Below, piece after piece: positions 266 through 61,115 of a stretch of DNA of 64,000 bases. The stretch spans positions 1,363,001 through 1,427,000 of the forward strand of contig NZ_CP029151.1 in NCBI RefSeq assembly GCF_003095655.1, written 5' to 3'. This DNA comes from Dokdonia sp. Dokd-P16 (lineage in GTDB: Bacteria; Bacteroidota; Bacteroidia; Flavobacteriales; Flavobacteriaceae). The notes under the pieces are model-generated. The model saw nothing but the letters and a program-made list of their open reading frames with translations, was not told the DNA's origin and made no database searches. The stretch's first letter is position 1, and the number at the start of each line of letters is the position of its first letter. Both the position numbers and the translations under genes were made by a program.

Positions 266-281
266 CGCTTTCGCGAAAGCG
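266..281. repeat. Palindrome CGCTTTCGCGAAAGCG, intergenic copy
   Basis: Full 16-bp palindrome in the gap between the DUF4349 gene and the S41 protease gene. No T-tract follows it, so it is not a standard terminator. Confidence 0.95.
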
Positions 282-289
282 TACGTATA

Positions 290-1111
290 TTATTTATGTT
301 TCTTTTTCATCCAGCGACGCACAAAAAAAGCGCTTATACTTAACAAGATAAGAAATGGCCAAAGATGCAACAAACCTAAAAAGAATACCGAAACACCGTT
401 CCAGCCACTTTTAAGGGCATTAATCATTTTTGAACCATAGGAGTTTGTGACCTTAGTATCCACCTCGTTCTTATAAAAATGGATATTTAGAGTGCTTAAT
501 GAGACTTGGCTTTCAAGGTATTTGAGTCTTCCTTGCTTTGCTTCTATTTCTTCTCGTATCTCTGCGAGTTCGCGTTCTATCTCTAGCATTTCTTTGACAT
601 TTTTTGCCTTTGAAAGTAAGTCGATATAACGATCTTCTAGCGCTCGCTTTGCTTTAAGGCGGGCGTTGAGGTCTACAAATTCTTCTGTAACGTCTTTTTG
701 AGAGATAGTTTTCTCGTCAAAATATGCTACACCTTTTGAAATCTCATCAAGTGCTATCTGGAAGTTACGAGTAGGAACACGTACAGTAAGATTTTGAAAA
801 ACGCCGCCGTAGCTCTCTTTACCGGAATTATCATTCTGTATGTACCCTTCAGTCTTTTTTATAATATTGAGAATATGTGCGTGCGTTGCCGCCATATCCT
901 GAGTTTCAAAACGTAGATTTCCTGTTTTGATAATTTTTTGTGTGGTGGCTTGGGCGTTTGGAGCACTTTCTTCGAGTACAATTTCCTCAATCTCCATATC
1001 GTCAAACGCCTCGTATGTTATTCCTGGTTCGCTATTGCTATAAGTACCGGTTTCGGCATTTTCACATGAAATAATGAATAAAAAACTAAGAAGTAGAAGA
1101 AACTGTCGCAT
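290..1111 (-). CDS. DUF4349 domain lipoprotein
   Basis: This 273-residue protein starts with a lipoprotein signal (MRQFLLLLSFLFIISC, Cys16 as lipid site). It has the DUF4349 layout: a beta-rich region with two paired repeats (about 60-145), a long charged coiled coil (about 145-205, rich in ERELAEIREEIEAKQ-type heptads), and a C-terminal membrane helix (about 242-265) ending in RRWMKKKHK. The role of the family is not known to me; the layout suggests an envelope-anchored structural or sensing protein. Its start overlaps the rnpA stop by 26 bp, so translation is probably coupled to rnpA. The upstream neighbour rnpA and downstream S41 protease are on the same strand. Confidence 0.85.
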   Translation of the reverse strand: MRQFLLLLSFLFIISCENAETGTYSNSEPGITYEAFDDMEIEEIVLEESAPNAQATTQKIIKTGNLRFETQDMAATHAHILNIIKKTEGYIQNDNSGKESYGGVFQNLTVRVPTRNFQIALDEISKGVAYFDEKTISQKDVTEEFVDLNARLKAKRALEDRYIDLLSKAKNVKEMLEIERELAEIREEIEAKQGRLKYLESQVSLSTLNIHFYKNEVDTKVTNSYGSKMINALKSGWNGVSVFFLGLLHLWPFLILLSISAFFVRRWMKKKHK

Positions 1112-1469
1112 CGTTAAAACGTTTTATAAGTTTGACCATGGCCTTATGAAGCACTGCTTGAGAGACTTCTTCTTGGCCTGTATATAATATAAGCATCGCA
1201 AATGTCGTGCCTTTTGTATCTATAAGGTCTTTATGTAAACGATAGGACTCTCGCATTAAACGTTTTATGCGATTGCGAGAAACAGCCAACTTAAAATTAC
1301 GCTTGGACACAGAAACTCCAGCTTGTACCACGTAAGCATCAGTAGATAGTGGTGTTTCTATATAAACCATCCTAAGCGGAAAAGACTTCACAGACTTTCC
1401 CTCAATAAAAAGGGTGTCTATCAGTTTTTTAGACTTTAATTTTTCGGCTTTTGGGTAGGTGTGTGGCAT
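1086..1469 (-). CDS. rnpA: Ribonuclease P protein component
   Basis: RnpA is the protein subunit that helps RNase P RNA remove tRNA 5' leaders. The sequence shows the family core KAEKLKSKKLIDTLFIEGKS near the N-terminus and the RNA-binding signature SVSKRNFKLAVSRNRIKRLMRE (about 54-75 from this start). Length (127 residues) is normal. I chose ATG at 1469 because homologues begin within a few residues of the PKxEKLKSKK motif; an in-frame TTG at 1478 is possible. It leads a reverse-strand group with DUF4349 (26 bp overlap) and the S41 protease. Confidence 0.93.
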   Translation of the reverse strand: MPHTYPKAEKLKSKKLIDTLFIEGKSVKSFPLRMVYIETPLSTDAYVVQAGVSVSKRNFKLAVSRNRIKRLMRESYRLHKDLIDTKGTTFAMLILYTGQEEVSQAVLHKAMVKLIKRFNDATVSSTS

Positions 1470-1515
1470 TGCGAGCAAAGATAACAGAATTCAAATAGGT
1501 TGTATGATGCTAGTA

Positions 1516-1530
1516 CGCTTTCGCGAAAGC
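1516..1530. repeat. Palindrome CGCTTTCGCGAAAGC, intergenic copy
   Basis: 15 of 16 bases of the full form, between the divergent rnpA and umuD-like genes. Confidence 0.95.
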
Positions 1531-1953: not shown

Positions 1954-3221
1954 TTGCAATGGTAGATTGTAATAGCTTCTACGCCTCGTGCGAGCAAGTA
2001 TTTCGTCCAGATTTACGAGGAAGACCAGTGGCGGTACTTAGCAATAATGATGGTTGTATTATCGCCAAAAATAAAGAAGCAAAGGCACTCAAACATATTC
2101 CTTATCGCGATCCGCTATTTAAAATCAAGGGACTGCTTGCGCAAAATGATGTGACTCTATTTTCATCTAACTATACATTGTACGGCGATATGTCTGATCG
2201 CGTGATGAATGTGCTCAGAGATTTCTCACCAGCCGTTGAGGTGTATAGTATAGATGAGTCATTTGTAGACCTATCTGGTATTACCCACGTAAACCTCGAA
2301 ACATATGGGTACCAAATTAAAGATACCGTTGTGCGACGCACGGGAGTTCCTGTAGGAGTAGGGATTGCACCTACTAAAGTCCTTGCAAAACTTGCCAATA
2401 GAATCTCAAAGAAGATAGCACGCTTTAATTATGTCTTTGTCATGGACACCGAAGAACGCCGCATAGAATGTCTCAAATGGGCCGAAACAAAAGATGTCTG
2501 GGGACTTGGTAAAAAGCATGTAGAACGCCTGGCAAATGTGGGTGTTTTCACAGCTTATGATTTTACACAATTGCCGCTTGCGTGGGTACGCAAAGAAATG
2601 ACGGTAATAGGGGAGCGACTTTGGCGCGAACTCAATGGAGAATCATGTATTCCTTTTGATACGCTTCCGCGAAAGAAAAAAGCAATAGGTACCGCAAAAT
2701 CCTTTGGTAAAAAACTAGATAATCTTCCTCAAATTGAGGAGGCTTGCGCCTACTACATAAGCGAAGTAAGTGAGGTGCTACGTTTTCAAAAATGTTGCTG
2801 TACACAGTTGCGTATATATCTTACCACAAACTACCACAGTACAAATGATGTGCAACACGCAGATAAGACCATTGTCACCTTATCTGTACCCACAAATGAT
2901 ACTTTCTTGCTTATTGTAGAAGCAAAAAAAGCATTGAAGCGAATTTACAAACCAGGTTTTAAGTATAAAAAAGTAGGAGTAGACCTCTTAGGTCTCATTC
3001 CAGAGGAGCAAGTACAAGGAAATCTCTTTATGCCTGAAGCAACAGGAGATAAACGCCTTATAAAAGCCTTTGATGCGATTAATAACCGATACGGGAAGTC
3101 CACCGTTTCTGCAGGATTATCCGGTACCACAAAAAGTAATAAGGAATGGGAACTCATCAAAGAAGAGCGTAGCCCTAGATATACAACGCAGTGGGATAGT
3201 TTGCTGGAGATTGGGGAGTAA
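1950..3221 (+). CDS. umuC: Y-family DNA polymerase V catalytic subunit, UmuC-like
   Basis: This 423-residue protein is an error-prone translesion polymerase. The N-terminal palm motif MVDCNSFYASCEQVFRP holds the first metal-binding Asp (residue 6), SNNDGCIIAKNKEAK follows, and YSIDESFVDL (about 99-108) supplies the catalytic Asp-Glu pair. Helix-hairpin-helix and little-finger regions follow, then a C-terminal DUF4113-like tail (FDAINNRYGKSTVSAG to the end). All key residues are present, unlike its UmuD partner, with which it overlaps by 4 bp. The last 24 codons are repeated in a diverged copy at 4674-4748. A degenerate palindrome copy (2662-2675) lies inside. Confidence 0.93.
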   Translation: MIAMVDCNSFYASCEQVFRPDLRGRPVAVLSNNDGCIIAKNKEAKALKHIPYRDPLFKIKGLLAQNDVTLFSSNYTLYGDMSDRVMNVLRDFSPAVEVYSIDESFVDLSGITHVNLETYGYQIKDTVVRRTGVPVGVGIAPTKVLAKLANRISKKIARFNYVFVMDTEERRIECLKWAETKDVWGLGKKHVERLANVGVFTAYDFTQLPLAWVRKEMTVIGERLWRELNGESCIPFDTLPRKKKAIGTAKSFGKKLDNLPQIEEACAYYISEVSEVLRFQKCCCTQLRIYLTTNYHSTNDVQHADKTIVTLSVPTNDTFLLIVEAKKALKRIYKPGFKYKKVGVDLLGLIPEEQVQGNLFMPEATGDKRLIKAFDAINNRYGKSTVSAGLSGTTKSNKEWELIKEERSPRYTTQWDSLLEIGE

Positions 3222-5718: not shown

Positions 5719-7566
5719 TTACTTTTTCTCCCAAACGTTATCTGTTTGATCAATATCTGCCATCATTGATGTAGGATCAATCTTCATCATTTTTACCTCA
5801 CTTAGTGGTGCATCAATGGTGAATGTATAGGTAGGGTTTGTCCAAGGCCAGTCTGCTAGTTGCTCACGAGTGATGTTTGGTGTTGGGTTTGGCTTTTCGG
5901 CGCGCATCATACGTAATGGCATGTAGTAAGATTTTTGAGAACCATCTGCCATATCCACATAAAGATCTATAGGCATCGGCATGAGTCCTTTTCGCGTAAG
6001 CGTAACCTTAGTTTTATTACCATCTGCTTCTACACTTGTGATACCGTAATCAATAGTGTTTGTAGTCTGCGCCCAGTCCATTAAGTACCAGTCTAGTTCC
6101 ATTCCAGAAACTTTCTCTGCAGTACGTTTGATGTCGTTAGGTGTAGGGTGCTTAAAAGAAAAATCATCAAAGTACTTTCTAAGTGTTTTCTTAAGATTGT
6201 CTTCACCGATAACGTATCCTAATTGTGCAAGAAATACCGCTCCTTTGCTATATGCAGCGATGCTGTAAGGCATGTTCTCATTGTAACGATCTGCGTGCGT
6301 TGTTTGTGGTTGCTCTTTACCGCTTTTAACGAGGTAATAGTAGCCTCTGTACGACCCAGAAAGCGGATTAGGATTATCACCTCCTGTAAGTTCATTTTCT
6401 GCAAGAGAAGAGATATATGAGGTAAATCCTTCATCCATCCACTCGTGTTTTGCTTCGTTACTTGCTAGTAAGAATTGGAACCAAGTGTGTGCCATCTCAT
6501 GTGCAGTCACACCAAAAAGACTTCCAAACTTGCGCTCACCAGTGATAAGTGTGCTCATAGCATACTCCATACCACCATCACCACCTTGTATCACAGAGTA
6601 CTGCTTGTACGGATATGTACCTACGTGTTTGTTATAAAAGGCAAGCAAACCTGCCGTCATAGGCTGGAGTTTCTTCCAATTTTCTTTGATAGACTCTTTG
6701 TTTTTATAGAAAAAGTGAAGTTCTGTATCATTTTCTCCCATGATCATATCGTGCACATAATCAGGATCTGCAGCCCATGTAAAGTCATGTACGTTTGGCG
6801 CTTTAAAGTGCCATTGTAATTTACCACGTTTTGCATTTTTACCTGGCTTCATAGAAGTTCCTGCATACCCATGACCCATATCTTCTGGATCTTGTAAATA
6901 TCCTGTACCACCTACTGTGTAGTTCTCATCAATATTGATTTTTACATCAAAATCTCCCCATACTCCGTGAAACTCACGAGCGATATAAGGATCTGCATGC
7001 CATCCTTCAAAATCGTATTCGGCCATTTTTGGGTACCATTGCGTCATAGATAGTGCAACACCTTCTTTGTTGTTACGACCACTACGGCGTATTTGAGTAG
7101 GTACTTGACCTTTAAAATCCATCTCAAAAGTAGTAGTTGTTCCTGGTGCAATAGGAGTTGCAAGTTGTACTTCAAGTACCGTTCCCGCTACTTCGTAAGT
7201 TAACTTCTTACCATCTTGAGTAAGGCTATTTACTTTAATAAACCCAATCTCATCTGGCGCTAGTTTACTGATACGATCTTTTACACGACCATCTGGATCT
7301 GCAATGTTGCGTGAGCGCACGTCCATCTCGCTTCCAGGTTGGAACGCGTTAAAATATAAGTGATAAAAAACACGGTCTAGTGTCTCTGGAGAGTTGTTTG
7401 TGTACTCTAGCTTTTGTGTACCATCATATTGATAGTTTTTTACATTCATATCGATTTCCATTTCGTAATCGACGTGCTGTTGCCAGTAAGAGGTGTTGTT
7501 TTGTGCATACGCTTTCGCGAAAGCGAACAACGATACCATCACCAGTAATTTGTAAGCGTTTTTCAT
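5719..7566 (-). CDS. M1 family zinc metallopeptidase, secreted
   Basis: A 615-residue aminopeptidase-like protein. The signal peptide ends ...LFAFAKAYAQ; part of it (AFAKA) is encoded by a palindrome copy. The zinc site HEMAH (356-360) with the third ligand Glu379 is intact (TAHEMAHTWFQ ... WMDEGF). The substrate-binding GAMEN motif is changed to GGMEY (331-335), as in several bacterial secreted M1 enzymes. An N-terminal beta-saddle domain and a C-terminal region complete a normal length. It probably trims peptides in the periplasm or outside the cell. It has its own terminator downstream; the subtilase lipoprotein gene lies upstream on the same strand. Confidence 0.92.
   Translation of the reverse strand: MKNAYKLLVMVSLFAFAKAYAQNNTSYWQQHVDYEMEIDMNVKNYQYDGTQKLEYTNNSPETLDRVFYHLYFNAFQPGSEMDVRSRNIADPDGRVKDRISKLAPDEIGFIKVNSLTQDGKKLTYEVAGTVLEVQLATPIAPGTTTTFEMDFKGQVPTQIRRSGRNNKEGVALSMTQWYPKMAEYDFEGWHADPYIAREFHGVWGDFDVKINIDENYTVGGTGYLQDPEDMGHGYAGTSMKPGKNAKRGKLQWHFKAPNVHDFTWAADPDYVHDMIMGENDTELHFFYKNKESIKENWKKLQPMTAGLLAFYNKHVGTYPYKQYSVIQGGDGGMEYAMSTLITGERKFGSLFGVTAHEMAHTWFQFLLASNEAKHEWMDEGFTSYISSLAENELTGGDNPNPLSGSYRGYYYLVKSGKEQPQTTHADRYNENMPYSIAAYSKGAVFLAQLGYVIGEDNLKKTLRKYFDDFSFKHPTPNDIKRTAEKVSGMELDWYLMDWAQTTNTIDYGITSVEADGNKTKVTLTRKGLMPMPIDLYVDMADGSQKSYYMPLRMMRAEKPNPTPNITREQLADWPWTNPTYTFTIDAPLSEVKMMKIDPTSMMADIDQTDNVWEKK
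7510..7525. repeat. Palindrome CGCTTTCGCGAAAGCG inside M1 peptidase signal peptide
   Basis: Full 16-bp copy, read in frame as Ala-Phe-Ala-Lys-Ala near the signal-peptidase cleavage site. Confidence 0.95.
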
Positions 7567-10213: not shown

Positions 10214-10229
10214 CGCTTTCGCGAAAGCG
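10214..10229. repeat. Palindrome CGCTTTCGCGAAAGCG, intergenic copy
   Basis: Full copy in the 218-bp gap between the divergent MBL hydrolase and antiporter genes. Confidence 0.95.
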
Positions 10230-13721: not shown

Positions 13722-14222
13722 CTAGAGAACTCTTTCGTAGCAGTAAAATGGGTGCTCACTTTGTTTCGGAAAATAGATACTTCCTAGTTTCTCATATCCT
13801 CGAGCTTCATAAAACTTTTGATTACGTTTATTTTGAGAAAAAGTATCGAGACGTATTGAAGGTGTCGAGTGCGCTTTCGCGAAAGCGTATGCATAATCCA
13901 TTAGTTTGCGAGCATTTCCTTGTCCTTGATAGTCGGGATGTACGGCAAGCCTATGGATGTACAAATTATTTTTTGAAGGGGTGAGCCAGTCAATGTCTAG
14001 ATACTCATCATCCATTAATGTTGACAACACAATGGTACCTATAATGCTATCATTCTCCTTGAGAAGAAAGAGCTCATTACGAGCAATATCTTGCTCAAAA
14101 GCAGTGGCAGTAGGGTAGTGCTCATTCCACTGAAAAATATTTCTTGAAATCATTTCTTGTGCACAGGCACGAGTAAGTGAAAGGATTTCAGGGATTTCTG
14201 AATTTTTTGCAGGTACAATCAC
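13722..14222 (-). CDS. GNAT family N-acetyltransferase
   Basis: A 166-residue single-domain GNAT enzyme. The acetyl-CoA-binding motif A reads RLAVHPDYQGQGNARKLMD (about 90-108, pattern Q/RxxGxG/A). The C-terminal part (NQKFYEARGYEKLG) is the usual motif B. The substrate cannot be predicted. A palindrome copy encodes AFAKA between the two motifs (YAYAFAKAHSTP). It is divergent from the universal stress gene, with about 50 bp between starts. Confidence 0.88.
   Translation of the reverse strand: MIVPAKNSEIPEILSLTRACAQEMISRNIFQWNEHYPTATAFEQDIARNELFLLKENDSIIGTIVLSTLMDDEYLDIDWLTPSKNNLYIHRLAVHPDYQGQGNARKLMDYAYAFAKAHSTPSIRLDTFSQNKRNQKFYEARGYEKLGSIYFPKQSEHPFYCYERVL
13872..13887. repeat. Palindrome CGCTTTCGCGAAAGCG inside GNAT gene
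   Basis: Full copy, read on the reverse strand as Ala-Phe-Ala-Lys-Ala in a helix following the acetyl-CoA motif. Confidence 0.95.
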
Positions 14223-15196: not shown

Positions 15197-15198
15197 CA

Positions 15199-15219
15199 TT
15201 TGCACGCAATTTGCACGCA
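15199..15219 (+). repeat. Left-end tandem repeat, candidate integrase arm sites
   Basis: Two head-to-tail copies of TTTGCACGCA separated by one A, 77 bp inside the left att core. An identical 21-bp copy in the same orientation lies at the right end next to the integrase gene. Arm-type binding sites of tyrosine recombinases are often paired short direct repeats in such positions. Confidence 0.7.
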
Positions 15220-15414
15220 AAATGGGCTTTTAAGAATATTAATTAATATTTGATCCATTTTGGTGTAAAACAAGATCTTCACTGCTTTTTATATCTTTTC
15301 TAGATTACTTCGAAGAATATAAGCAATGTTTAGATCCCTATAATCTCTATAGTAAAACATAACCTTCCGTTAAACAATTGAAATAATTAAAAATTATACC
15401 TAGCTTTACAATAA

Positions 15415-15834
15415 ATGAAACTATTTCTTCACAAATCAATGGCAATCTTTATGGCTTGCGTGGTGCTCGTAACCACGACGTCATTCACCGTGGATATGCA
15501 CTATTGTGGGGATAACTTGGTAGATTTCAGTTTATTCTCAAAAGCTGAAGGTTGCGGAATGGAAAAAGCGCAATCCGTAAAAAGTTGTGAGAATCCTAAA
15601 ATGACTGAAAAATCGTGTTGTACTGACCAGCAAATTGTCAAGGAAGGCAAGGACGACCTCAAAATTTCATTTGACACACTTTCATTCGAGCAGCAAACGT
15701 TCATCGCTGCTTTTACCTATTCATATATAAACCTTTTTGAAGGAACCGAATCTGAAGAAGTTCCTTTTGAAGATTACCCGCGACCCTTTGTCAAACGGGA
15801 TGTGCAAATGTTGCACCAGACTTTCTTAATTTGA
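15415..15834 (+). CDS. Cys-rich HYC/CC/PP-type secreted protein
   Basis: A 139-residue protein with a signal or membrane segment (about 8-26) followed by MHYCGDNLVDFSLF, a KSCC pair (about 66-70) and a C-terminal DYPRPF. This combination matches a small Bacteroidota family known by its HYC, CC and PP motifs, usually found beside metal-efflux genes. The conserved His and Cys suggest metal binding in the periplasm, probably of copper. It is the first cargo gene of the element and precedes cusA by about 110 bp. Confidence 0.75.
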   Translation: MKLFLHKSMAIFMACVVLVTTTSFTVDMHYCGDNLVDFSLFSKAEGCGMEKAQSVKSCENPKMTEKSCCTDQQIVKEGKDDLKISFDTLSFEQQTFIAAFTYSYINLFEGTESEEVPFEDYPRPFVKRDVQMLHQTFLI

Positions 15835-15942
15835 TTTGTTAGATTTTTAGAATGAAGCCCAACAGCTATGCTGTCGTGGGCTAAAACTCGTGTTTGCCAT
15901 TTTTTGCAATACGCAATTCCAATTATCTAATAATCAAATGCT

Positions 15943-18900
15943 ATGCTGAATAAGAGCATTAAATTTCTCATAGAAAACAAACTTGTTGCTGTTCTACTAC
16001 TCGCCCTATTCGTGGGTTGGGGCGTGGTTAATGCGCCTTTTAATTGGGAAACTGGCTTTCTGCCTACAGAGCCAGTTGCCGTAGATGCCATACCTGATAT
16101 TGGCGAGAACCAGCAGATTGTTTTTACCAAGTGGCAAGGTCGCTCGCCACAGGATATAGAAGACCAAATCACATATCCGCTTACCACTTCCCTTCTGGGT
16201 ATTCCAGGCGTGAAAACCATTCGTAGTTCTTCTATGTTTGGATTTTCGAGCATCTACATCATTTTTGAAGAAGACATTGAGTTCTACTGGTCACGCAGTC
16301 GCATACTCGAAAAACTGAACTCACTTCCTGCAAACCTTTTGCCCGATGGTGTCAACCCATCATTAGGGCCAGATGCCACAGGTCTGGGACAGATATTTTG
16401 GTACACGTTGGAAGGTCGTGATAAAGACGGAAACGTGACTGGCGGTTGGGATTTACAGGAATTGCGTAGTATTCAGGATTACTATGTAAAGTTCGGGCTA
16501 TCCTCTGCAAGTGGTGTTTCTGAGGTAGCTTCCATAGGTGGCTATGTTCAGGAATATCAAGTCGATATCGACCCAGAAAAAATGCGCCAGTACAATGTAA
16601 GTATGGGCGATGTGGTCAAGGCCGTAAAGCAGAGTAATCAAGATATAGGCGCACAAACGCTCGAAATCAATCAAGCAGAATATCTTGTGCGCGGATTAGG
16701 TTACGTAAAGTCTATCGCAGACATTGAAAGTGCGGTGGTTGATTCTGAAAATTTTACTTCAATCCGTATCAAAGATGTGGCTAATGTTCATTTAGGGCCA
16801 GCCACAAGACGTGGTATTCTGGATAAGGAAGGTGCCGAAGTCGTAGGTGGTGTTGTAGTCGCTCGCTATGGTGCAAATCCGTTGGAAGTTATCAATAATG
16901 TGAAGGCACAAATTGCCGAAATCAGCTCTGGTCTTCCCACAAAAACCTTGGCAGATGGTCGCACTTCACAAGTAACCATCGTTCCATTTTACGACCGTAC
17001 CGAACTCATTCAAGAAACGCTGGACACGCTAAACGAAGCCCTGACTTTGGAAATCTTGATTACCATTTTGGTCATTATCATAATGGTGTTCAACCTGCGA
17101 GCATCTATACTTATTTCAGGATTATTGCCCGTAGCCGTTTTGATGGTATTTATTACGATGAAGCTCTTTAATGTAGATGCAAATATCGTTGCGCTTTCAG
17201 GTATCGCCATTGCCATCGGTACAATGGTGGACGTGGGTGTCATACTCGCTGAAAATATGATACGGCATTTGGAAGATGAAAAGTTACGCCTTAATGAAAA
17301 CGGTAAGGAATACAGTACAAACGAAATCATCTACAACGCAACTGCCGAAGTTTCTGGTGCTATCCTAACCGCAGTTTTAACAACAATAATCAGTTTCTTG
17401 CCCGTATTCACGATGATTGGTGCCGAAGGAAAACTGTTTCGTCCACTTGCCTTTACTAAAACAATGGCACTCACTGCATCGCTCGTCATTGCGCTGTTTA
17501 TTATTCCACCCATCGCGGCATTCCTTTTCCGCAAGACGAGTGTACGAGAACGCACCCAATATGCCATCAATGGCGTACTTGTTTTATTGGGGATTCTCGC
17601 CATCGTTTATGGCTTTTGGTTAGGACTAATTCTTATCGCCTTTGCCATCACATCATTTTTAAAGATGCGTGGTACGCTTTCGCGAAAGCGTAAAAACCTA
17701 ATCGACATTATCATTTCATCGGTTGCCATCGTGTTTTTGCTCGCGACCTATTGGCGACCGTTAGGCTTTGACCGAAGCATCGTGATGAACCTGATATTTG
17801 TTTCCACTATCTGTTTTGGATTGCTCGGTGTATTCTCAATTTTCAGGATATATTACGAGCGTATTTTGCGATGGGCACTTCAGAACCGATATCTATTCTT
17901 AATCGTTCCGGCTACGGTGCTCACGCTCGGTATTCTCATAATGCGAAATACGGGCAAAGAGTTTATGCCAGCGCTCAATGAAGGTTCATTCCTTTTAATG
18001 CCTACCTCACTACCGCACGCAGGTGTCGAAGAAAACAAACGTGTTCTGCAACAGCTCGATATGGCGGTGGCAAGCATTCCTGAAATTGAAACCGTGGTAG
18101 GAAAAGCTGGAAGGACAGAAAGCGCTCTTGACCCAGCACCACTCTCAATGTACGAAAACGTCATTCAGTATAAATCTGAATATATGCGAAATAGCTCTGG
18201 CGAGCGACAACGCTATAAGGTTAATGACGATGGATTGTTTGTGCTGAAGAACAATAAATTCATCATCAACCCAAATAATGACATAGATGAAGATGTAAAC
18301 TATGAAAAAGCTTCGCTCAAGACTACTGCCTCACGCAATGATTTGATTGAAGATGAAGATGGCGAATACTATCGCAACTGGCGACCAGAAATCAGCAGTC
18401 CAGATGATATTTGGAACGAGATAGTACGAGTTACGAAGTTGCCTAGCGTGACATCTGCACCTAAGTTGCAACCCATCGAAACCCGATTGGTAATGCTACA
18501 AACGGGAATGCGAGCACCTATGGGTATCAAGGTAAAAGGTCCCGATTTAAAGTCGATAGAAAACTTTGGACTGCAACTGGAAGACATTTTAAAACAAGCC
18601 GAAGGTGTTAAAGAACAAGCCGTCTTTGCAGACCGAATCGTGGGCAAACCGTACTTGCTCATCGATATTAAGCGAGACCAACTGGCACGTTACGGCATAT
18701 CTATAATGGATGTGCAGGAAATCCTTCAAGTGGCGGTTGGTGGTATGCCACTCACACAAACCGTGGAAGGTCGTGAACGCTATGCCGTGCGTGTACGTTA
18801 TCCACGAGAGTTACGGGCAAATCCAGACGACCTTAAAAACATCTACGTTCCCGTAGAAAAAGGCAGTCCTGTACCGCTGGGTGAATTGGTTGAAATTCGA

Positions 18901-19695
18901 TACGAACAAGGACCACAAGTCATTAAGAGCGAAGATACTTTTCTAATTGGCTATGTGCTGTTTGATAAACTCGATGGCTTTGCCGAAGTAGATGTGGTGG
19001 AAAATGCTCAAGCCTTAATCCAAGAAAACATTGACAACGGTACGCTGGTCGTACCCCAAGGTGTTAGCTATCGCTTTACGGGAACTTATGAAAATCAGTT
19101 GCGAGCAGAAAAAACCTTATCGGTTGTCGTACCACTTTGTTTGCTCGTTATTTTCTTGATTTTGTATTTCCAGTTTAGATCGGTTTCTACATCGCTTATG
19201 GTGTTTACAGCAATCGCCGTAGCCTTTGCAGGTGGTTTCATAATGATTTGGTTGTATGGGCAAGAATGGTTTTTCAATTTCAGCTTTTTTGGCGAGAACC
19301 TACGGGACTTATTCAATATGAAAACCATCAATTTAAGTGTGGCCGTTTGGGTTGGTTTTATAGCTCTTTTCGGTATCGCAACGGATGATGGCGTGGTAAT
19401 GGCCACCTATTTAGACCAATCTTTCAAAAGCAATGACCCAGATTCTCAAAAAGATATAAGGCTCGCCACTTTGGAAGCGGCTGGAAAACGTATCCGTCCG
19501 TGTTTGATGACAACCGTAACCACAGTTTTGGCACTACTACCAGTACTCACATCTACAGGAAAGGGAAGCGATATAATGATACCGATGGCGATACCCATTT
19601 TTGGCGGAATGATAATCGATGTCACGTCCTATTTCCTACTGCCAGTCCTATACAGCTGGAAAAAGGAATACCAACTTAAAAAAGCAAACAGATGA
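15943..19695 (+). CDS. cusA: CusA-type heavy-metal RND efflux pump
   Basis: A 1250-residue inner-membrane proton-driven pump that with CusB and CusC expels Cu+/Ag+ across both membranes. The N-terminus (LIENKLVAVLLLALFVGWGV), AVDAIPDIGENQQIVFTKWQGRSPQDIEDQ and the transmembrane stretch GIAIAIGTMVDVGVILAENM are characteristic of the CusA/CzcA group. Length exceeds the usual 1040 because of an extra insert in the second porter region (about 740-840, charged, with NNDIDEDVN) and a longer central membrane loop, as seen in other Bacteroidota CusA. Metal choice is inferred from similarity and from the Cu-type neighbours. A palindrome copy at 17675 is read as LSRKR. It overlaps cusC by 4 bp. Confidence 0.92.
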   Translation: MLNKSIKFLIENKLVAVLLLALFVGWGVVNAPFNWETGFLPTEPVAVDAIPDIGENQQIVFTKWQGRSPQDIEDQITYPLTTSLLGIPGVKTIRSSSMFGFSSIYIIFEEDIEFYWSRSRILEKLNSLPANLLPDGVNPSLGPDATGLGQIFWYTLEGRDKDGNVTGGWDLQELRSIQDYYVKFGLSSASGVSEVASIGGYVQEYQVDIDPEKMRQYNVSMGDVVKAVKQSNQDIGAQTLEINQAEYLVRGLGYVKSIADIESAVVDSENFTSIRIKDVANVHLGPATRRGILDKEGAEVVGGVVVARYGANPLEVINNVKAQIAEISSGLPTKTLADGRTSQVTIVPFYDRTELIQETLDTLNEALTLEILITILVIIIMVFNLRASILISGLLPVAVLMVFITMKLFNVDANIVALSGIAIAIGTMVDVGVILAENMIRHLEDEKLRLNENGKEYSTNEIIYNATAEVSGAILTAVLTTIISFLPVFTMIGAEGKLFRPLAFTKTMALTASLVIALFIIPPIAAFLFRKTSVRERTQYAINGVLVLLGILAIVYGFWLGLILIAFAITSFLKMRGTLSRKRKNLIDIIISSVAIVFLLATYWRPLGFDRSIVMNLIFVSTICFGLLGVFSIFRIYYERILRWALQNRYLFLIVPATVLTLGILIMRNTGKEFMPALNEGSFLLMPTSLPHAGVEENKRVLQQLDMAVASIPEIETVVGKAGRTESALDPAPLSMYENVIQYKSEYMRNSSGERQRYKVNDDGLFVLKNNKFIINPNNDIDEDVNYEKASLKTTASRNDLIEDEDGEYYRNWRPEISSPDDIWNEIVRVTKLPSVTSAPKLQPIETRLVMLQTGMRAPMGIKVKGPDLKSIENFGLQLEDILKQAEGVKEQAVFADRIVGKPYLLIDIKRDQLARYGISIMDVQEILQVAVGGMPLTQTVEGRERYAVRVRYPRELRANPDDLKNIYVPVEKGSPVPLGELVEIRYEQGPQVIKSEDTFLIGYVLFDKLDGFAEVDVVENAQALIQENIDNGTLVVPQGVSYRFTGTYENQLRAEKTLSVVVPLCLLVIFLILYFQFRSVSTSLMVFTAIAVAFAGGFIMIWLYGQEWFFNFSFFGENLRDLFNMKTINLSVAVWVGFIALFGIATDDGVVMATYLDQSFKSNDPDSQKDIRLATLEAAGKRIRPCLMTTVTTVLALLPVLTSTGKGSDIMIPMAIPIFGGMIIDVTSYFLLPVLYSWKKEYQLKKANR
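17675..17690. repeat. Palindrome CGCTTTCGCGAAAGCG inside cusA
   Basis: Full copy, read in the second frame as Leu-Ser-Arg-Lys-Arg, in a cytoplasmic loop of the pump. Confidence 0.95.
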
Positions 19696-20912: not shown

Positions 20913-20928
20913 TCTAAATATATATCCT

Positions 20929-21438: not shown

Positions 21439-21449
21439 AATGAAAAGTG

Positions 21450-38794: not shown

Positions 38795-38804
38795 CACAGC
38801 GCGA

Positions 38805-40351: not shown

Positions 40352-40372
40352 ACACCCATAAGTGCGCCCTAT

Positions 40373-40418
40373 GCTGTTTTTACTTCACGCTTATCAACCC
40401 GAACACTATAAAAACAGC
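40373..40418. terminator. Inverted repeat between convergent mobilization and integrase genes
   Basis: GCTGTTTTTA (40373-40382) and TAAAAACAGC (40409-40418), a 10-bp inverted repeat with a 26-bp spacer. It lies between convergent genes and may stop transcription from both sides, but the long loop is unusual for a terminator and another role is possible. Confidence 0.4.
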
Positions 40419-40514
40419 ACAGGAACCACGCGCAGGTAAGTTTTGGTAGATTTGGGGGCTATCAATTTGATTAAAGGAGAATCATAAAATTCAATAGTAA
40501 AACTTCCTTTTTTC

Positions 40515-41738
40515 TTAAAGTTGTATATCAACTAGATTTCTGTTGTAATTGTCTAATATTTCATTGGGTAAGGTTTTTAGATAAATTTGAGTAGTTGATA
40601 ACCGATTGTGTCCTAGCATCGCTGATATAGCTTGTAATGGTACGTCCTGTAGCATTGCTTGAGTTGCAAAACTATGACGAGATACGTATGAGGATAGGCG
40701 TTGATTAATTTTGCATTTTATTGCAATTTGCTTCAAACCTTTATTATATCTCTTTCGAGCCCACAACACATCTTTATACTGAAGTTCGAATGTATCTCTT
40801 TTTATGATTGGAAAAATAAAATCCGTGCTACTCTTATCTTTTAAATAGAATGAAAGTATTTTCCCTAATTGTTCAGTTATACCTATATCATAAGGCTTAG
40901 CTGTTTTTTTTCTTTGAAATTTAATGCGATTATCAATAATATTTTCAGTTGTTAAGAATGCCAGATCCATATACGAAATACCATAGAGCATATATGAGGC
41001 TAAAAAATAATTGCGGTAATGAAAGAGATTGTCAGATTCCTCAAGATCCAGGAGCATTATGGATTTTAAACTATTGATATCAAGAGCTCTTTTTTCGGTT
41101 GGAGCTGTTCTAATTTTATAGTTTGTGAAAGGATAAGCATCTTTAGATAGGACATCAGATCTGATTGCTACATTTATAATGGCTTTTATTGTTCTCATAT
41201 ATGTTGAAAGACTATTCACTGAATTTCCTCTTGAATAATGCCATCTTTCAAATTTGTTTAAAAAGTCATAATTGATCTCGTTGAATTTGAGATCGTTGCC
41301 ATTAGTAAATTTTTCAAGCACCTTTATAACAGCATAATAGGTGTTGGCATTTCCAAAACGGTCTGCTGCTTTCATTTCGTCCACGAGCATTTTTCCGTAT
41401 ACGAAAAAAGACTCATAAGACGTAATTTTTACAATCTTGCTTTTGAGTTGAACAATTGATAAATGATCAAGTTCTTCTTTTTCATTCAAAGCGTCGATGA
41501 TGTCTACTGCCCGAGCCTTTTCTTTTAAAAACTGATTATTTAATTTACTAACTGAATTTGTCCCCTTGAATGCACGCTTGATTTTCTCATTTTTATCATC
41601 CCAAAACTCTTTCTGGACGGAATGACCCAAGCTTATTGAGGTTGTTTTTCGAAAGTGAGTCAATCTTAAAATAATTGGGTAGGAGGAATCTTTTTTCTGC
41701 CTCCTCGTATCCAATGATATTTTTATGTTTGTATTCAT
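40515..41738 (-). CDS. int: Tyrosine recombinase, integrase of the element
   Basis: A 407-residue integrase with an N-terminal arm-binding-like region, a SAM-like core-binding domain (about 110-200) and a catalytic domain (about 215-400). Catalytic residues visible: Lys in FQRKKTAKPYDIG, Arg in SSYVSRHSFA, His in MLGHNRLSTTQ and the nucleophile Tyr in TTQIYLK. The first Arg of the set appears replaced (LYGISYMDLAFL where many relatives have TRGMSF), as I recall for the CTnDOT-type group. It reads away from the nearby right end; paired repeats lie about 20 bp upstream of its start and att core 147 bp upstream, as expected for the recombinase that inserted the element at tRNA-Ala. Confidence 0.92.
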   Translation of the reverse strand: MNTNIKISLDTRRQKKDSSYPIILRLTHFRKTTSISLGHSVQKEFWDDKNEKIKRAFKGTNSVSKLNNQFLKEKARAVDIIDALNEKEELDHLSIVQLKSKIVKITSYESFFVYGKMLVDEMKAADRFGNANTYYAVIKVLEKFTNGNDLKFNEINYDFLNKFERWHYSRGNSVNSLSTYMRTIKAIINVAIRSDVLSKDAYPFTNYKIRTAPTEKRALDINSLKSIMLLDLEESDNLFHYRNYFLASYMLYGISYMDLAFLTTENIIDNRIKFQRKKTAKPYDIGITEQLGKILSFYLKDKSSTDFIFPIIKRDTFELQYKDVLWARKRYNKGLKQIAIKCKINQRLSSYVSRHSFATQAMLQDVPLQAISAMLGHNRLSTTQIYLKTLPNEILDNYNRNLVDIQL

Positions 41739-41760
41739 TACAAACTAAAGGTAATAAAAA

Positions 41761-41781
41761 TTTGCACGCAATTTGCACGCA
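41761..41781 (+). repeat. Right-end tandem repeat, candidate integrase arm sites
   Basis: Identical over 21 bp and in the same orientation as the repeat at 15199-15219 (two copies of TTTGCACGCA separated by one A). It lies 22 bp upstream of the integrase start and 103 bp inside the right att core, so integrase binding here could also regulate its own gene. Confidence 0.7.
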
Positions 41782-41992: not shown

Positions 41993-42007
41993 CGCTTTCG
42001 CGAAAGC
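41993..42007. repeat. Palindrome CGCTTTCGCGAAAGC, intergenic copy
   Basis: 15 of 16 bases, just outside attR, between the tRNA terminator and the addB-like gene. Confidence 0.95.
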
Positions 42008-47530: not shown

Positions 47531-50500
47531 TTAAACAGATATCACATCTACAGTGGCGTCTATATATACTAGAAACTTATTAGCTACTTTAAACCCCATT
47601 TCCTCATATAGTGCTCCATACATAGCGATTTGTTTACTGTGTGATGGATTATGCATCCCGGTTTTGTAATCTATAATAGTGGTATCACCATTGGGTAATA
47701 CAACAACTCTGTCAGGTATATAAAATGAACCATCACTAGATAAAATCATTCGCTCGTTGTAAACTGTATTTTGATCTTGGTAATAATCGGTTAATTGGTG
47801 ATTGCTCGTAATGTTGCGAAGAACATTATTAATGGTTTCATATCCTTCCTCTGGAACAATACCTTGCTTTACGGCATCTTCTAGTACATGCGTGAGGTCT
47901 GTATAACTATTAATCTGAGCCATTAGCTCATGGATGAGATTACCATAGGTAATAGCATTTTGTTTTTGCTCATCCCATAAAAAAGTGGCCTGAGTAATGA
48001 TCTGAATGCCCAATTCTTCTTTTGAGGTAGAGATGATGGAAGGAATAAATGAGGTGTAATCTGCTTTGTTGTCTTCTATTTTTGCAGGTGTCTCACGTCC
48101 AAAAGTATAGGTGCGTTGGTCTTCATTCCATAGATTATTTGTTTTAAGATAATCTATAAACAAATCACTGTAGGTATTTATTTTTTCTTTGCTTTCGCGA
48201 AAGCGTGACAACACATATAATCGTTCTGCGGCTCTTGTGAGTGCAACGTACAATACATTAATGGTGTCAAACTGCTGTTCATTATTTCTGGTCTCATATA
48301 ATGTCGAGCCAGCGTCACCAAAATCTTTGAGTGCACTATTATGGGGAACCATCAACGTTTTAAATCCTCCAAATTCTGGATCATCTATAGGATACCATTG
48401 GTGTTCTCCTCGTACTCTATATAAATCTGAACTTGCATAAGGGTAGATAACAATAGGAAACTCTAATCCTTTAGATTTATGAATTGTCATGGTTTGTACA
48501 GCACTATCTTGCTCCGGAGCAACAATACTAGACTTCTCCTTTTTTTCTTCCCAATAGTCGATAAAACCGAGGATACCACCACTTTTATTCTGTGAGTAAC
48601 TATAAGCAAGATCAAGATAAGCTACTACGTAAGCATCAGAAATTGCGGTGAGATTAAATAATCTCACTATCGATTCCAGATATTCATAGAGAGGTAGCGT
48701 TTGCATGTAGTCAATGTGCACAAAAACATCAAATTGCTGTAAATGCTCTATGAATTCTAAAAATGTACATGAGGTGTTGGTACTATAAAATGAGTGCGTG
48801 TCTTCTACATTATAGTAAGTTGCCAAAAAGTAGAGTACAGGCAATCTATTTTCTATTTGACTAGGGTAGGAGAGCATTGTGGCAAATGCATGAATAAATT
48901 GTACTGTGCTAGAGTTTGAGATAAGCAAGCTCTCAGAAGACACAACTTCTACATTTGCCTCTTGTAAGGCAGTTGCTATTAATGAGCCATCTATATTATT
49001 TCTCGTAAGTATACAAATGTCACTATGCAAGTAGCCTTGGGTAGTAGCTTCATTTATAATTTCAATAATGCGCGCAGGATATATTTCATTTGCTTCTTCT
49101 TTATTGTCATATTCCAAAAACTCAAGAGAGACAAAGCCCTCTGTGTTACTATTAGTTTGTTGTGAGTTGTCTTTATAATAAATTTCTCTATATAATTCGT
49201 TATCAAAGTGAGTTGCGAGATGCGTAAAAAACTGATTATTAAAGTTTATAATTTCGGCGCTACTTCTATAGTTAGTCTCTAGGCGGTCTATGGTTGCTGG
49301 AGTTGAAAAGGGGTTTGTTTGATTACTTAACGCTATAAATTGCTCTGCTTCTCCTCCTCTCCATCTATAGATCGCTTGTTTGGGGTCTCCTACAAGCAAT
49401 AGGGAATTTGCAACAGTATCTTCTGCCTCACTACTTATGGTGTTATCTATAAGTGGGATTAAATTGTCCCATTGTATTACCGAAGTATCTTGAAACTCGT
49501 CTATAAAATAATTTGTGTACCGCTCGCCAAGTCTTTCATATAAAAAAGCGGCTGGCTGATCTTTAAGCGACTGCGCTATAAGCGCGTTAAAATCTGAGAT
49601 GAGTAACACATTTTCATCTTCTTTGATAAGCTCTAGCTCTTTCTTGATTAAGTGCAAAACGGACAGTGGTATAATCTTAGATCTAAAAGATTGTAACATA
49701 TTCTGCTTAGAAGCAAGTTCCTTAAGCTTCAAGAACGTTGCTATAAAATGATCCCTATGCCCATCAATGGTAGCTTTGATATGGTCTTTTTGAGTCTTTG
49801 TATAAAAGGTGTAAGACGTAATATTATCTTTATAAGCCGATCCTGTATACGCAAGTCCTTGTACCCCATTTGCAACTTGGAGCATGAATTTATAAAAATA
49901 TCCACTCGCAAAACTTTTTTGATCTAACCCTAGCTCGTGTATTAATGCGATAAGATCTTCTCCTAGTTGTTTTTGAGCGGAGGAAAGTGACTTAATCTGA
50001 GCATGTAAATAGCTAGTTAATGTGTCAAAATCTGCAAGGGATTTATCTTTAATGAGCTCTAGCGCCTTGAGATCATTTTCATTGTGCAATAAATTTGCTA
50101 TTTCTAGTAAATCACGGGCAATGTCCCAGCTCTTATCATCATCTGCTTTTTCTAAAGCAAAATTTATTAGGACTTTAGTAATCTCATCATCTATGCCCAC
50201 CTTTGCAATGAGTGCATCTACCGCTTGGGCATTAAGTGTTTTCTGATCAAGGGAAACCTCAAAACTACCAGAGATATTTAGATCTTTTGCAAAAGTGCGT
50301 ATGATTCTATGGGTAAGCGTATCTATCGTGACAATATCAAAGGCGGCATAATTATGAAGTATACGATTGAGTATTTCTTTAGCTTTCTTTACGACTACAT
50401 CCTCAGGTAATCCACTAGATGAAACTAAGTCGTCTAGCATGTCTGGTTTTTTATTGCCAGGCTCATAATGACCTAAGTTTTTGAGCGTGTCTAGTACACG

Positions 50501-50822: not shown

Positions 50823-50836
50823 GCTTTCGCGAAAGC
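50823..50836. repeat. Palindrome GCTTTCGCGAAAGC upstream of sodA
   Basis: 14-bp core in the 266-bp gap between divergent addA-like and sodA genes, about 100 bp before the sodA start. Confidence 0.95.
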
Positions 50837-54944: not shown

Positions 54945-55030
54945 CTATAATTTTTTGTGCAAATATACGGTTTTGAATGTTTGACAACTCAAATTTAAGG
55001 AGACCGCTTTCGCGAAAATTTAAAATTAAA

Positions 55031-55792: not shown

Positions 55793-56386
55793 CTAAGATA
55801 AGAATTCTGCAATTACCTCTGGAAAATGAGCTTGTTCCAGTTGGTGTATTTTTTCGGCAATTGCTTCTGGTGTGTCTTCTTGGCTTACTTCAACTTTGGC
55901 TTGAAATAAGAAATCTCCTTTGTCATATTCGGGCGTTACTTTATGTATGGTGATGCCTGTATATACTTTTTGAGAAGGATTTTTATCGTGTTGCGCTTTC
56001 GCGAAAGCGTAAACAGCCTCATGCACATTCATGCCGTACATTCCCTTTCCTCCAAAATCTGGGAGCAATGCTGGGTGTATATTTATGACCTTATCTGAAA
56101 ACGCCGAAATTATTTTTTCTGGAAATAGCCATAAAAAACCTGCCAAAATGATGACATCTGGTTGTGTAGCTTTAAGAAGATGGAGTACATCATCACCTTT
56201 ATAGAAAGCTTTTCTGTTAAAACTAAACGCAGCAACATCAAGGGCTGAGGCTCTTTGAAGTACTTTGGCACGCGGATTGTTACTAAGAACTTGCACGACT
56301 TGTGCATCCGTACGATCCTGGAAAAACTCTATAATACGCTGGGCATTTGTACCGTTACCCGAGGCAAAAATCACAATTCGTTTCAT
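55793..56386 (-). CDS. purN: Phosphoribosylglycinamide formyltransferase
   Basis: A 197-residue enzyme that transfers formyl from 10-formyltetrahydrofolate to GAR in purine synthesis. N-terminal phosphate loop IVIFASGNGTNAQRIIEFF, catalytic region INIHPALLPDFGGKGMYG (Asn-His) and TGITIHKVTPEYDKGDFLFQ (Asp) are complete. A palindrome copy encodes AFAKA at about residues 127-131, in a surface helix (AVYAFAKAQHDKN) before the active-site strand. It leads the group purN-rnhA-small protein, divergent from acpP. Confidence 0.95.
   Translation of the reverse strand: MKRIVIFASGNGTNAQRIIEFFQDRTDAQVVQVLSNNPRAKVLQRASALDVAAFSFNRKAFYKGDDVLHLLKATQPDVIILAGFLWLFPEKIISAFSDKVINIHPALLPDFGGKGMYGMNVHEAVYAFAKAQHDKNPSQKVYTGITIHKVTPEYDKGDFLFQAKVEVSQEDTPEAIAEKIHQLEQAHFPEVIAEFLS
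55994..56009. repeat. Palindrome CGCTTTCGCGAAAGCG inside purN
   Basis: Full copy, read on the reverse strand as Ala-Phe-Ala-Lys-Ala. Confidence 0.95.
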
Positions 56387-58805: not shown

Positions 58806-58898
58806 CGTAAGTTTATTAATTGATTTTACTACATTAGCTTTTTAATCATCTTTTTCCCCTAGAAGATTAAAGATTAGAGTCTTAGGGCTCCACCCCTT

Positions 58899-60533
58899 AT
58901 GTTAGTAAAATTTCCAAAGAGATACTATCTCGTTTTTGCATTTCTTGCACTCATAACGGCAATTGCTGTTTATTGGGGTACATCCCGCATAATACAACAA
59001 GAGGAAGCTGCTCGTACACTTAACTTAGAAAGAGCAAATAGAGAAGCTGCAAAGGAATTTCAAGAAGCTCTTAACAATTATGCAACTCTAATTTCTGGAG
59101 TAAAAAGTTATATTGAAATATCTAATGGGAGCTTTACTGAGAACGATATATCTTCCTTTATAGAACGGCAGCTAGGTGGACTTATCATGGAACGTCCCTT
59201 TAGTGTTTCATATATTGATACGAGCCATATTTTTATTTTTGACTTTACCATGCAGCCTGTACCTAATGCACAATTAGTAGGTACTTCTATAGGTAAAATT
59301 ATAGGTAAGGAAGGAATGTCAAGAATGGACTCTTTAATGCGTAAGAGTGATTTTTATGCCTCAGACCCCACAAATTTATTAGAAGGTAGAGTAGGGCTTC
59401 CGCTAGGGTTTGGTGTTTTGGACAGCCTCGGTAATTCTCTAGGCTACATTACAAGTATTGCAGAGTTTGCCCCTATTTTAGATAAAGCTTATGTTCATAA
59501 TAACAAAGAGGATTTTGTTTTTAGGTTTAAGAGTAGTAACGGTAATTACTTTGATCGTAGTAGAGCCCATAATGGACAAAAAATATACTCTGTAAATGAG
59601 GACCCAGAGTTTTTTAAAAACTTCGATGTTAGTGAAGAAACCTATATTTCCAGTGTAGTCCCTTTTTACAATAAGGAATTTATGTTAAGCACCGCCTATA
59701 AGAAGTCTCATGAAGGTTTCTTAGCACTAGGCGTTACATCATGTTTATGGTATCTCGCCATATTAGGATTTATGTTCTTTTTAATAAGTCAGTATTATTT
59801 GTACGAGCGTAAGAATAAAATTATTGCATCACAAAAAGTTAGACTCTCAGAGCTTGTAGCTACAAAAAATAAGTTTTTCTCAATTTTAGCAAATGACCTT
59901 AGAGGTCCTCTATCATCCGTAATAAACTTTCTAGATGTATTAAAAGTAGAACACGCAAATAACAGTCAAACCACCACGATAATAAATTCTCTTGAAGACT
60001 CTAGCCGAAACAGTATTTCATTACTTGACAACCTTCTAAAATGGTCAAAACTGCAAACAGAGCAAGTCGAGTTTACTCCTGTTGCATTAGATATCATGTC
60101 TATTACAAAAGATCAAATCAAAATACAAAACCACGCTCTTCAAAGCAAAGGGATCAACATACGTCTAGAGTCAAGTTTTAAAGGTGAAGTAGTAGGAGAT
60201 AAGAATATGGTGGCGACCATAATTAGAAATTTACTGTCTAATGCAATTAAGTTTTCGCACGATAATGATATCATAGTGATTGAGCTTACAAGGCTAGATA
60301 ATAAGTTTGTTTTTAGTATTGAAGATAACGGAATAGGGATTCCAGAATATGACAAGCAACGTCTTTTTGATCTAACTGAGATTACGAGTCGGGTGGGCAC
60401 TAGAAACGAAAAGGGTTCAGGTCTAGGACTAGTTTTAAGTAATGAGTATCTCAAGGCTCATAAAGGAGAATTACATATTGAAAGTGAAGATGGTAAGGGA
60501 ACTCTCGTTACATTCACATTGCCTCTAGATTAA
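58899..60533 (+). CDS. Membrane sensor histidine kinase homologue with Asn in place of the phospho-acceptor His
   Basis: A 544-residue protein: first membrane helix (about 9-30), a CHASE-like periplasmic sensor (about 40-260), second helix (about 268-300), then a kinase core. The H-box reads KNKFFSILANDLRGPLSSVI, where relatives have IAHDLRGPL; codon AAT at 59892-59894 gives Asn332 instead of the His that normally takes the phosphate. The ATPase half looks intact: N box NLLSNAIKFSHD, G1 IEDNGIGIPEYD, G2 GSGLGLVLSNEYL. No response regulator gene is adjacent. It may act by ATP binding or by partner interaction rather than by phosphotransfer. Confidence 0.85.
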   Translation: MLVKFPKRYYLVFAFLALITAIAVYWGTSRIIQQEEAARTLNLERANREAAKEFQEALNNYATLISGVKSYIEISNGSFTENDISSFIERQLGGLIMERPFSVSYIDTSHIFIFDFTMQPVPNAQLVGTSIGKIIGKEGMSRMDSLMRKSDFYASDPTNLLEGRVGLPLGFGVLDSLGNSLGYITSIAEFAPILDKAYVHNNKEDFVFRFKSSNGNYFDRSRAHNGQKIYSVNEDPEFFKNFDVSEETYISSVVPFYNKEFMLSTAYKKSHEGFLALGVTSCLWYLAILGFMFFLISQYYLYERKNKIIASQKVRLSELVATKNKFFSILANDLRGPLSSVINFLDVLKVEHANNSQTTTIINSLEDSSRNSISLLDNLLKWSKLQTEQVEFTPVALDIMSITKDQIKIQNHALQSKGINIRLESSFKGEVVGDKNMVATIIRNLLSNAIKFSHDNDIIVIELTRLDNKFVFSIEDNGIGIPEYDKQRLFDLTEITSRVGTRNEKGSGLGLVLSNEYLKAHKGELHIESEDGKGTLVTFTLPLD

Positions 60534-60638
60534 ATACTTTACAATTTCTAGCGAAAACGTTTACGTAACTTTAATACCTCTCACGTATTCCTTCGGATGC
60601 TTCTTTGTATCTTTCTAACTTGCTTAAACGTTATGGGA

Positions 60639-61115
60639 ATGTATAAAATTCTTTTGGAAGACTCCATTGGTTATGACTTTACGCTCATAGCTATACATGG
60701 TTCTTTAGAGCCATATTTCTTGGCATACTTACTTAATAAGAATCTTGGATTACGACTATCTCGTTCTCGTGAAGACCTCATTATTGGTAATCGAGAAGAA
60801 GAGGCAAGCTATCCCTTTTTTGAATTTAATGATGAACATCAGTATGTAGACTACTACGTATTATCAAATAAGACAAAGATAGAAGTAGAAGCTAAAGCTG
60901 TTATAGGTCTTTTTGAATCAGAGAAAACACTCAAGACTACCTACTTTATTCCAGAGATGCCACAAGTAGATTATTTTATAAAAGTAGTTGAGGATGGTAA
61001 CGCTTTCGCGAAAGCTAAAGCACTAAAAATTCTCAATCAAATATCACATATTGTTACCGCTTACGAAGTAGATGTAAGCTCATTAAAAAATAAAGAACAC
61101 TTAATTTTTGAATAA
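60639..61115 (+). CDS. IPExxxVDY family protein
   Basis: About 158 residues from ATG 60639 (MYKILLEDSIGYDFTLIAIH). It has the defining motif FIPEMPQVDYFIKVVED that names this Bacteroidota family, whose function is unknown. It is cytoplasmic and overlaps the pyruvate kinase start by 1 bp, a conserved pairing as I recall, which hints at a link to glycolysis or its control. A palindrome copy encodes AFAKA just after the motif. An upstream in-frame ATG at 60597 would add a hydrophobic stretch not seen in the family; ATG 60633 is also possible. Confidence 0.85.
   Translation: MYKILLEDSIGYDFTLIAIHGSLEPYFLAYLLNKNLGLRLSRSREDLIIGNREEEASYPFFEFNDEHQYVDYYVLSNKTKIEVEAKAVIGLFESEKTLKTTYFIPEMPQVDYFIKVVEDGNAFAKAKALKILNQISHIVTAYEVDVSSLKNKEHLIFE
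61001..61015. repeat. Palindrome CGCTTTCGCGAAAGC inside the IPExxxVDY gene
   Basis: 15 of 16 bases, read as Ala-Phe-Ala-Lys-Ala, after the IPExxxVDY motif. Confidence 0.95.

Follow-up and report, generated by a model that had tools for sequence, protein, structure and literature searches.

The perfect 14-bp palindrome GCTTTCGCGAAAGC is iterated throughout the chromosome of the marine bacterium Dokdonia sp. Dokd-P16 and across its genus, and we tentatively favour, at somewhat less than even confidence, the view that it marks Dokdonia-type DNA as a clade-specific tag, recognised by sequence and acting like an uptake signal sequence. A preliminary description had reported 21 exact copies in a 64-kb stretch of that chromosome (the window; G000:C1:1,363,001-1,427,000). 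The whole chromosome (genome G000, one contig of 3,623,447 bp) carries 808, a density of one per 4.5 kb or 223 per Mb, against a composition-based expectation of 0.0055 and no copies of the reversed sequence used as a control. All 18 Dokdonia genomes searched, this one counted in, have between 369 and 905 copies. The palindrome is thus confirmed as highly iterated in the descriptive sense, being perfect and hugely over-represented genome-wide, and the proposal of a general iterated element is upheld for both genome and genus; copies are neither limited to the window nor close to a random count.

Abundance and clade distribution

A recount in the window again gave 21 exact copies (table 1), 11 of them in the full 16-mer form as described, with no copy at one mismatch and two copies at two mismatches; the latter, previously placed at 2662 and 55005, were found at 2663 and 55006. 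Every site described earlier was recovered, although the starts given were either identical or one too low. Allowing up to two mismatches, the 23 copies observed compare with a mean of 0.13 and a maximum of 2 in 100 dinucleotide shuffles, so that chance expectation is indeed far below one for the window, as it is for the chromosome.

Within the family sample, at least one copy is present in 80 of 397 genomes, and hundreds of copies are confined to three of 237 genera: g1, g11 (578, 664 and 609 copies) and g191 (408 copies). Below these amplified genera come genomes with 19, 17 and 16 copies, followed by counts of 9 or fewer. Three genomes, G093 and G303 (g77) and G068 (g52), hold 16-19 copies where 0-9 is usual in non-amplified genera; these may be islands, a remnant or an amplification in its beginnings. 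The order and phylum samples each comprised 148 genomes, among them our own, and shared some genomes with the family sample; in neither did any other genome exceed four copies. The AddA-like protein encoded in the window, whose closest named relatives are from Dokdonia, allowed the same distribution to be viewed locus by locus. The palindrome is present in 10 of 11 Dokdonia-type addA loci, the exception (L236) being 4.2 kb long, while its 10-mer core is absent from all 69 other addA loci (1.37 Mb). Among the 44 rows of an AddA tree, the ten amplified ones form a single group with full support, and the neighbouring genus, Leeuwenhoekiella, lacks the motif. No comparable iterated word remained in our own-genome sample (defined below) after masking, and none was found in the AddA loci (≥13 kb) of other genera.

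Literature searches, which left most subscription papers outside their reach, returned no description of the 14-mer or of the 12-mer CTTTCGCGAAAG and no paper linking highly iterated palindromes with flavobacteria. By title, the papers on iterated palindromes were cyanobacterial or general, and those with both Dokdonia and palindromes concerned other subjects. Because of that limit, absence from print cannot be claimed; the preliminary statement that no function has been described in flavobacteria agrees with the literature searched.

Exactness, half-sites and footprint

In a 464-kb sample of the genome, made up of the window and 20 evenly placed stretches, we found 108 exact sites together with 7 at one mismatch and 31 at two. 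Across 16 amplified genomes the ratio of exact to one-mismatch sites is 11842:1689 (7.0:1; 3.2-12.7 per genome), and sites are therefore nearly all-or-none. The lowest ratio among these genomes (408:128) belongs to G207, where site density is also low, perhaps reflecting weaker upkeep. Five low-copy genomes gave 62:33, a ratio inflated by chance near-matches (of which three genomes lacking exact copies have 1-2 each) and one to which three genomes without demonstrated islands contribute (G093, G303 and G068). The ratio for the uptake sequences of H. influenzae is about equal to this last figure (PMC1939737; this and the other papers cited are used here from parts of their text).

Each of the 139 occurrences of the core TTTCGCGAAA in the own-genome sample adjoins GC on one side or on both, and 108 of them have it on both. 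The remaining 31 are half-sites in which the second GC is replaced mostly by AT (13) or AA (8). These half-sites, GCTTTCGCGAAA and then mostly an A followed by A or T (L033-L052 and the window), could be incipient, decayed or a separate class of site. The mini-hairpin GCGAAAGC, a stable structure, was considered as the selected unit and rejected: by hand count, full sites account for 216 of its 258 copies in the sample and half-sites for 31, leaving 11, close to the chance number (approx. 7 by a hand estimate).

The flanks had been called unrelated; no single longer repeat accounts for them, but they do share features. TTAC precedes the palindrome and GTAA follows it, and on each strand the 5' flank is G/T-rich and poor in C over some 18 nt, with C at 4-14% per position from 3 to 18 nt out. 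At flank positions 5-24 we counted 411 C per 4240 letters, compared with 794 (standard deviation 25) at random places. The depletion is seen at intergenic sites as well as in each of the three reading frames (C 8-12%), and again at 105 sites of relatives (C 9%); pairing between flanks beyond that expected from composition was not found. Because the C-poor 5' flanks extend beyond the 14-mer on both strands, some 50 bp seem to be read, in a symmetric but strand-polar manner, probably by a protein.

Conservation and mode of change

Sites were compared with their counterparts in relatives for 15 own sites and 94 site-relative pairs, nine of the sites coming from one locus (L048) chosen for its many sites, and rows from related genomes being mutually non-independent. 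In order of decreasing flank identity, from more than 0.9 to less than 0.6, the 14-mer is exact in 22/27, 9/10, 31/37, 12/17 and 3/3 pairs; for control 14-mers in the same alignments the corresponding fractions are 0.48, 0.11, 0.034, 0.013 and 0.008. Thus where flanks are only 60-80% identical the site is exact in 43 of 54 pairs, compared with 1-3% for controls. The site inside addA illustrates this: all 14 letters are common to ten Dokdonia-type sequences with 46-72% identity to the window protein. The site is read there as GC TTT CGC GAA AGC, the first codon being CGC in nine and AGC in one (L180, 'Cytophagaceae bacterium SAT149'), while ten other relatives have unrelated codons at this position. 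Sites change mostly by substitution, since 12 of the 17 non-exact rows are ungapped (six with one mismatch, three with two and three with more) and five are gapped.

Placement and spacing

The 107 sites that could be placed relative to simple longest-open-reading-frame (ORF) calls divide into 68 within ORFs and 39 intergenic ones, the latter between tandem (26), divergent (8) or convergent (5) ORFs; one further site falls at a stretch edge. As the calls cover 91% of bases, intergenic sites are enriched about four-fold. Convergent gene pairs are not favoured, with 5 of 39 intergenic sites where 14% of intergenic bases are convergent.

The preliminary description had likened the palindrome to chromosome-organising sites. 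The ori-ter distribution gave no encouragement to that comparison: the 20 stretches hold 0-9 sites each in a Poisson-like manner (variance 4.45, mean 4.35), with no trend from origin to terminus (rho 0.21, p 0.37, taking the skew switch as origin). Spacing was assessed from 100 places in each of G000 and G001, the first ones listed, and from 81 in G207. The spacing result common to these genomes is a short-distance depletion, with 6 gaps below 1 kb against 18.7 expected in G000, 4 against 23.1 in G001 and 0 against 10.1 in G207; in the window the difference (3 against 5.9) is not significant. A strict periodicity was not borne out, as the coefficient of variation of the gaps is random-like in G000 (1.07) and lower in G001 (0.74), G207 (0.69) and the window (0.52).

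Five long site-poor gaps were also inspected. Their GC contents are 0.358 (L301), 0.343 (L302), 0.286 (L303), 0.393 (L304) and 0.388 (L305), a range of 0.286-0.393, so only some are atypical. L303 (G000:C1:257901-277900), which contains an ORF of 1781 amino acids, another of no fewer than 1577, one full site at its edge and five 10-mer cores, is probably acquired DNA.

Mobile elements and phages

Eleven of the 21 window copies, one per 2.4 kb, lie in a mobilisable element that carries a relaxase, a tyrosine recombinase and metal-efflux genes. Related islands were found in at least seven genomes of other genera (G231, G177, G095, G104, G118, G353 and G029), some sites being retained at corresponding positions. 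In the first five of these, both sites of the pair spaced 933 bp apart are intact; other sites of the islands are mutated or missing. Decay outside the clade is not established: at flank identity of at least 0.8, sites are exact in 13 of 22 island rows (a hand count omitting five near-identical L279 rows, whose inclusion gives 16 of 27), compared with 31 of 37 inside the clade, for a Fisher p of 0.06. A close-match search with window positions 19000-35800 found no plasmid match.

A viral scan gave at least 120 stretches with the palindrome, with 80 loci among the matches listed. By hand count, 53 of these have a GC content of at least 0.45 and one copy each, and look like chance matches. Seven low-GC records among the matches listed have 2-5 copies; as they were picked for having copies, site density in phages is biased, and their hosts are inferred from GC and motif. 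Temperate genes were seen in two viral loci only, an integrase in L087 and a transposase in L096. Phages of one group retain their aligned sites at 87-91% identity, apart from one that has turned into a half-site.

Table 1. Positions of the palindrome copies, near-matches and mobilisable element in the 64-kb window.
Feature	Position	Context
Palindrome copy 1	267..280	between genes
Palindrome copy 2	1517..1530	between divergent ORFs
Near-copy	2663..2676	two mismatches
Palindrome copy 3	7511..7524	in ORF 5719-7566 (-)
Palindrome copy 4	10215..10228	between divergent ORFs
Palindrome copy 5	13873..13886	in ORF 13722-14222 (-)
Mobilisable element, 26.6 kb	15198..41781	adjoins tRNA-Ala; 22-bp direct repeat at 15198 and 41760
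Palindrome copy 6	17676..17689	mobile element, efflux pump ORF
Palindrome copy 7	19734..19747	mobile element, outer-membrane efflux ORF; copy 8 is 933 bp on
Palindrome copy 8	20667..20680	mobile element, same ORF as copy 7
Palindrome copy 9	22924..22937	mobile element, ORF 22681-23430
Palindrome copy 10	25332..25345	mobile element, ORF 23940-25667
Palindrome copy 11	26184..26197	mobile element, between genes
Palindrome copy 12	29467..29480	mobile element, ORF 26236-30657
Palindrome copy 13	30165..30178	mobile element, same ORF as copy 12
Palindrome copy 14	32615..32628	mobile element; in ORF 32429-32908 by one ORF call, intergenic by another
Palindrome copy 15	34825..34838	mobile element, P-type ATPase ORF 33706-35670
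Palindrome copy 16	38251..38264	mobile element, Toprim ORF 37937-38794
Palindrome copy 17	41994..42007	between genes, immediately outside mobile element
Palindrome copy 18	48191..48204	in AddA-like gene; exact at same place in 10/10 aligned Dokdonia-type sequences
Palindrome copy 19	50823..50836	between divergent ORFs
Half-site	55006..55019	GCTTTCGCGAAA, then AT replacing GC
Palindrome copy 20	55995..56008	in ORF 55793-56386 (-)
Palindrome copy 21	61002..61015	in ORF 60597-61115

Possible functions of the palindrome

Taken together, exactness, change by point mutation, stability, minimum spacing and intergenic excess follow the pattern of uptake sequences and not that of E. coli Chi. Uptake sequences arise by substitution and occur as near-perfect copies (PMC1626085), and they exceed expectation in non-coding DNA (PMC1939737). 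Two Riemerella species of the Flavobacteriaceae are naturally competent and prefer their own DNA (PMC7965970). Under this reading, a protein of DNA uptake or of the ensuing recombination would recognise about 50 bp, comprising the palindrome and the C-poor 5' flanks on both strands, and fragments with one good site would be favoured in uptake and recombination. The resulting biased exchange would build sites via point mutation, keep them near letter-perfect and render a second site within approximately 1 kb useless.

Several points weigh against an uptake-like tag. The uptake sequences known from Pasteurellaceae and Neisseriaceae are not palindromes, as far as the cited part of PMC1939737 goes, so that the likeness proposed in the preliminary description extends to exactness, substitution origin, stability, spacing and intergenic excess and stops at symmetry. 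Dokdonia sites also differ in being carried by a mobile element and by low-GC phage contigs, which uptake-driven accumulation does not simply predict. Low-GC viral contigs that share a single palindrome with near-identical flanks, a conserved lone site, were seen as well (L054, L061, L066, L080, L085, L110, L121 and L126), and Cellulophaga phage Ingeline_1, a relative of the phage of L104, has no copy in 42.6 kb. F. johnsoniae, of the same family, is described as not competent in the cited part of PMC7965970. ComEC, the one competence gene searched for, is encoded by all 22 genomes searched, whether amplified or non-amplified, and so does not discriminate. The spacing of uptake sequences is significantly even (Karlin, cited in PMC1939737), yet less even than compaction would need. 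Lastly, HIP1, the highly iterated palindrome of cyanobacteria, is similarly exact (5648 exact to 1830 one-mismatch copies in Synechocystis, from counts in PMC1939737), and exactness alone does not therefore single out uptake.

A close rival, which we consider a real if lesser possibility, is a docking site for a DNA-binding protein that acts within the cell, such as a nucleoid-associated, segregation or repair factor, with one site needed about every few kb and kept by purifying selection, and with phages and mobile elements carrying sites to suit their host. The two-fold symmetric footprint of about 50 bp would suit such a protein, as would the minimum spacing, the extreme conservation and the low-GC phage contigs whose 2-5 copies are kept between relatives; in their symmetry and their presence in phages, the sites point to a binder inside the cell rather than to uptake. 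The flat ori-ter profile and Poisson counts described above count against it, and the consensus is strict, unlike the relaxed regulatory binding sites treated in the cited part of PMC1626085. No candidate protein was found, a phyletic-pattern search not having been made. Noc, SlmA and MatP sites and parS are palindromic or near-palindromic chromosomal sites that number tens or fewer and are biased towards ori or ter. Dokdonia sites share the palindromic form of these but number hundreds, without an ori-ter trend in the 20 stretches.

It seems unlikely that the palindrome serves the window's AddAB-type nuclease-helicase as a Chi-like, bidirectional site. AddA- and AddB-like genes are at hand, the density of sites is comparable to that of E. 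coli Chi (1008 copies in 4.64 Mb), both being about one per 4-5 kb, and the G/T-rich 5' flanks would suit loading of RecA, which prefers G/T-rich DNA. Chi differs, however, in not being palindromic and in being far less strict, with 1008 exact to 8855 one-mismatch copies against 7:1 here, and the Dokdonia palindrome is confined to one clade of AddAB-bearing bacteria, AddA relatives without such a motif being common (the 69 loci above). Alignment breakpoints at sites are not significantly enriched, either in Dokdonia (4 against 2.3, with 105 of 500 shuffles as high) or in the islands (3 against 0.9, 27 of 500 shuffles, two of the three from one locus). A recombination hotspot was set aside on the same Dokdonia result, despite a single phage junction at a site: homology between L091 (2309) and L307 starts four bases ahead of a palindrome copy.

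Less probable still is a palindrome created and maintained, in the style of HIP1, by an orphan DNA methyltransferase. HIP1 (GCGATCGC) is likewise a genome-wide perfect palindrome with more exact than one-mismatch copies and no agreed function, and HIP1 and alternate HIPs accompany matching methylases in cyanobacteria (PMC4390886). The likeness to HIP1 drawn in the preliminary description thus holds for form and exactness, but this is not HIP1 proper, the sequence being another one of 14 rather than 8 letters, rarer (at the density given above), read with a footprint of about 50 bp and found in a different phylum from the cyanobacteria. Among the 16 amplified genomes tested PF00145 is present in 7, PF01555 in 4 (2 above cut-off) and PF02086 in 10, so none of these three main type II methylase families is common to all. 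The window's own genome lacks all three (type I, Eco57I-like and other methylase families lay outside the search), and G004 and G258 have no match to them above cut-off.

A hairpin, terminator or copy-and-paste mini-element can be dismissed as highly improbable. The palindrome is a perfect inverted repeat, and its 22-nt consensus reaches a folding energy of -7.3 kcal/mol (z -2.41); yet folding of the 14-mer does not surpass that of shuffles (z -0.21), the flanks add no pairing, most sites lie in ORFs, convergent intergenic sites are as frequent as expected and aligned relatives differ mainly by substitutions.

Implications

It is conceivable, and we hold this tentatively too, that this is a highly iterated palindrome outside cyanobacteria whose upkeep is not due to a methylase: a palindromic tag of self-DNA, strand-polar over its footprint of about 50 bp and borne also by temperate phages and mobile elements of the clade, in effect a shared passport for DNA exchange. 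HIP1 was first described in 1995, as cited in PMC4390886, and in the cited part of that paper it still has no agreed function. The Dokdonia palindrome is a second such case, in another phylum and with a stricter and longer consensus. Leeuwenhoekiella, the sister genus in the AddA tree, is without the motif, and the genome studied here is without members of three main methylase families. The question of function is thereby open to test, through a comparison of the two genera and a search for the protein that reads the site. Should the palindrome prove to be an uptake signal, it would rank as a strong candidate within a family for which the one k-mer survey we met gave A/T-rich words only (PMC7965970, in the part cited). 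Whatever reads it, the palindrome may serve as a barcode for islands and phages that have passed through Dokdonia-type hosts.

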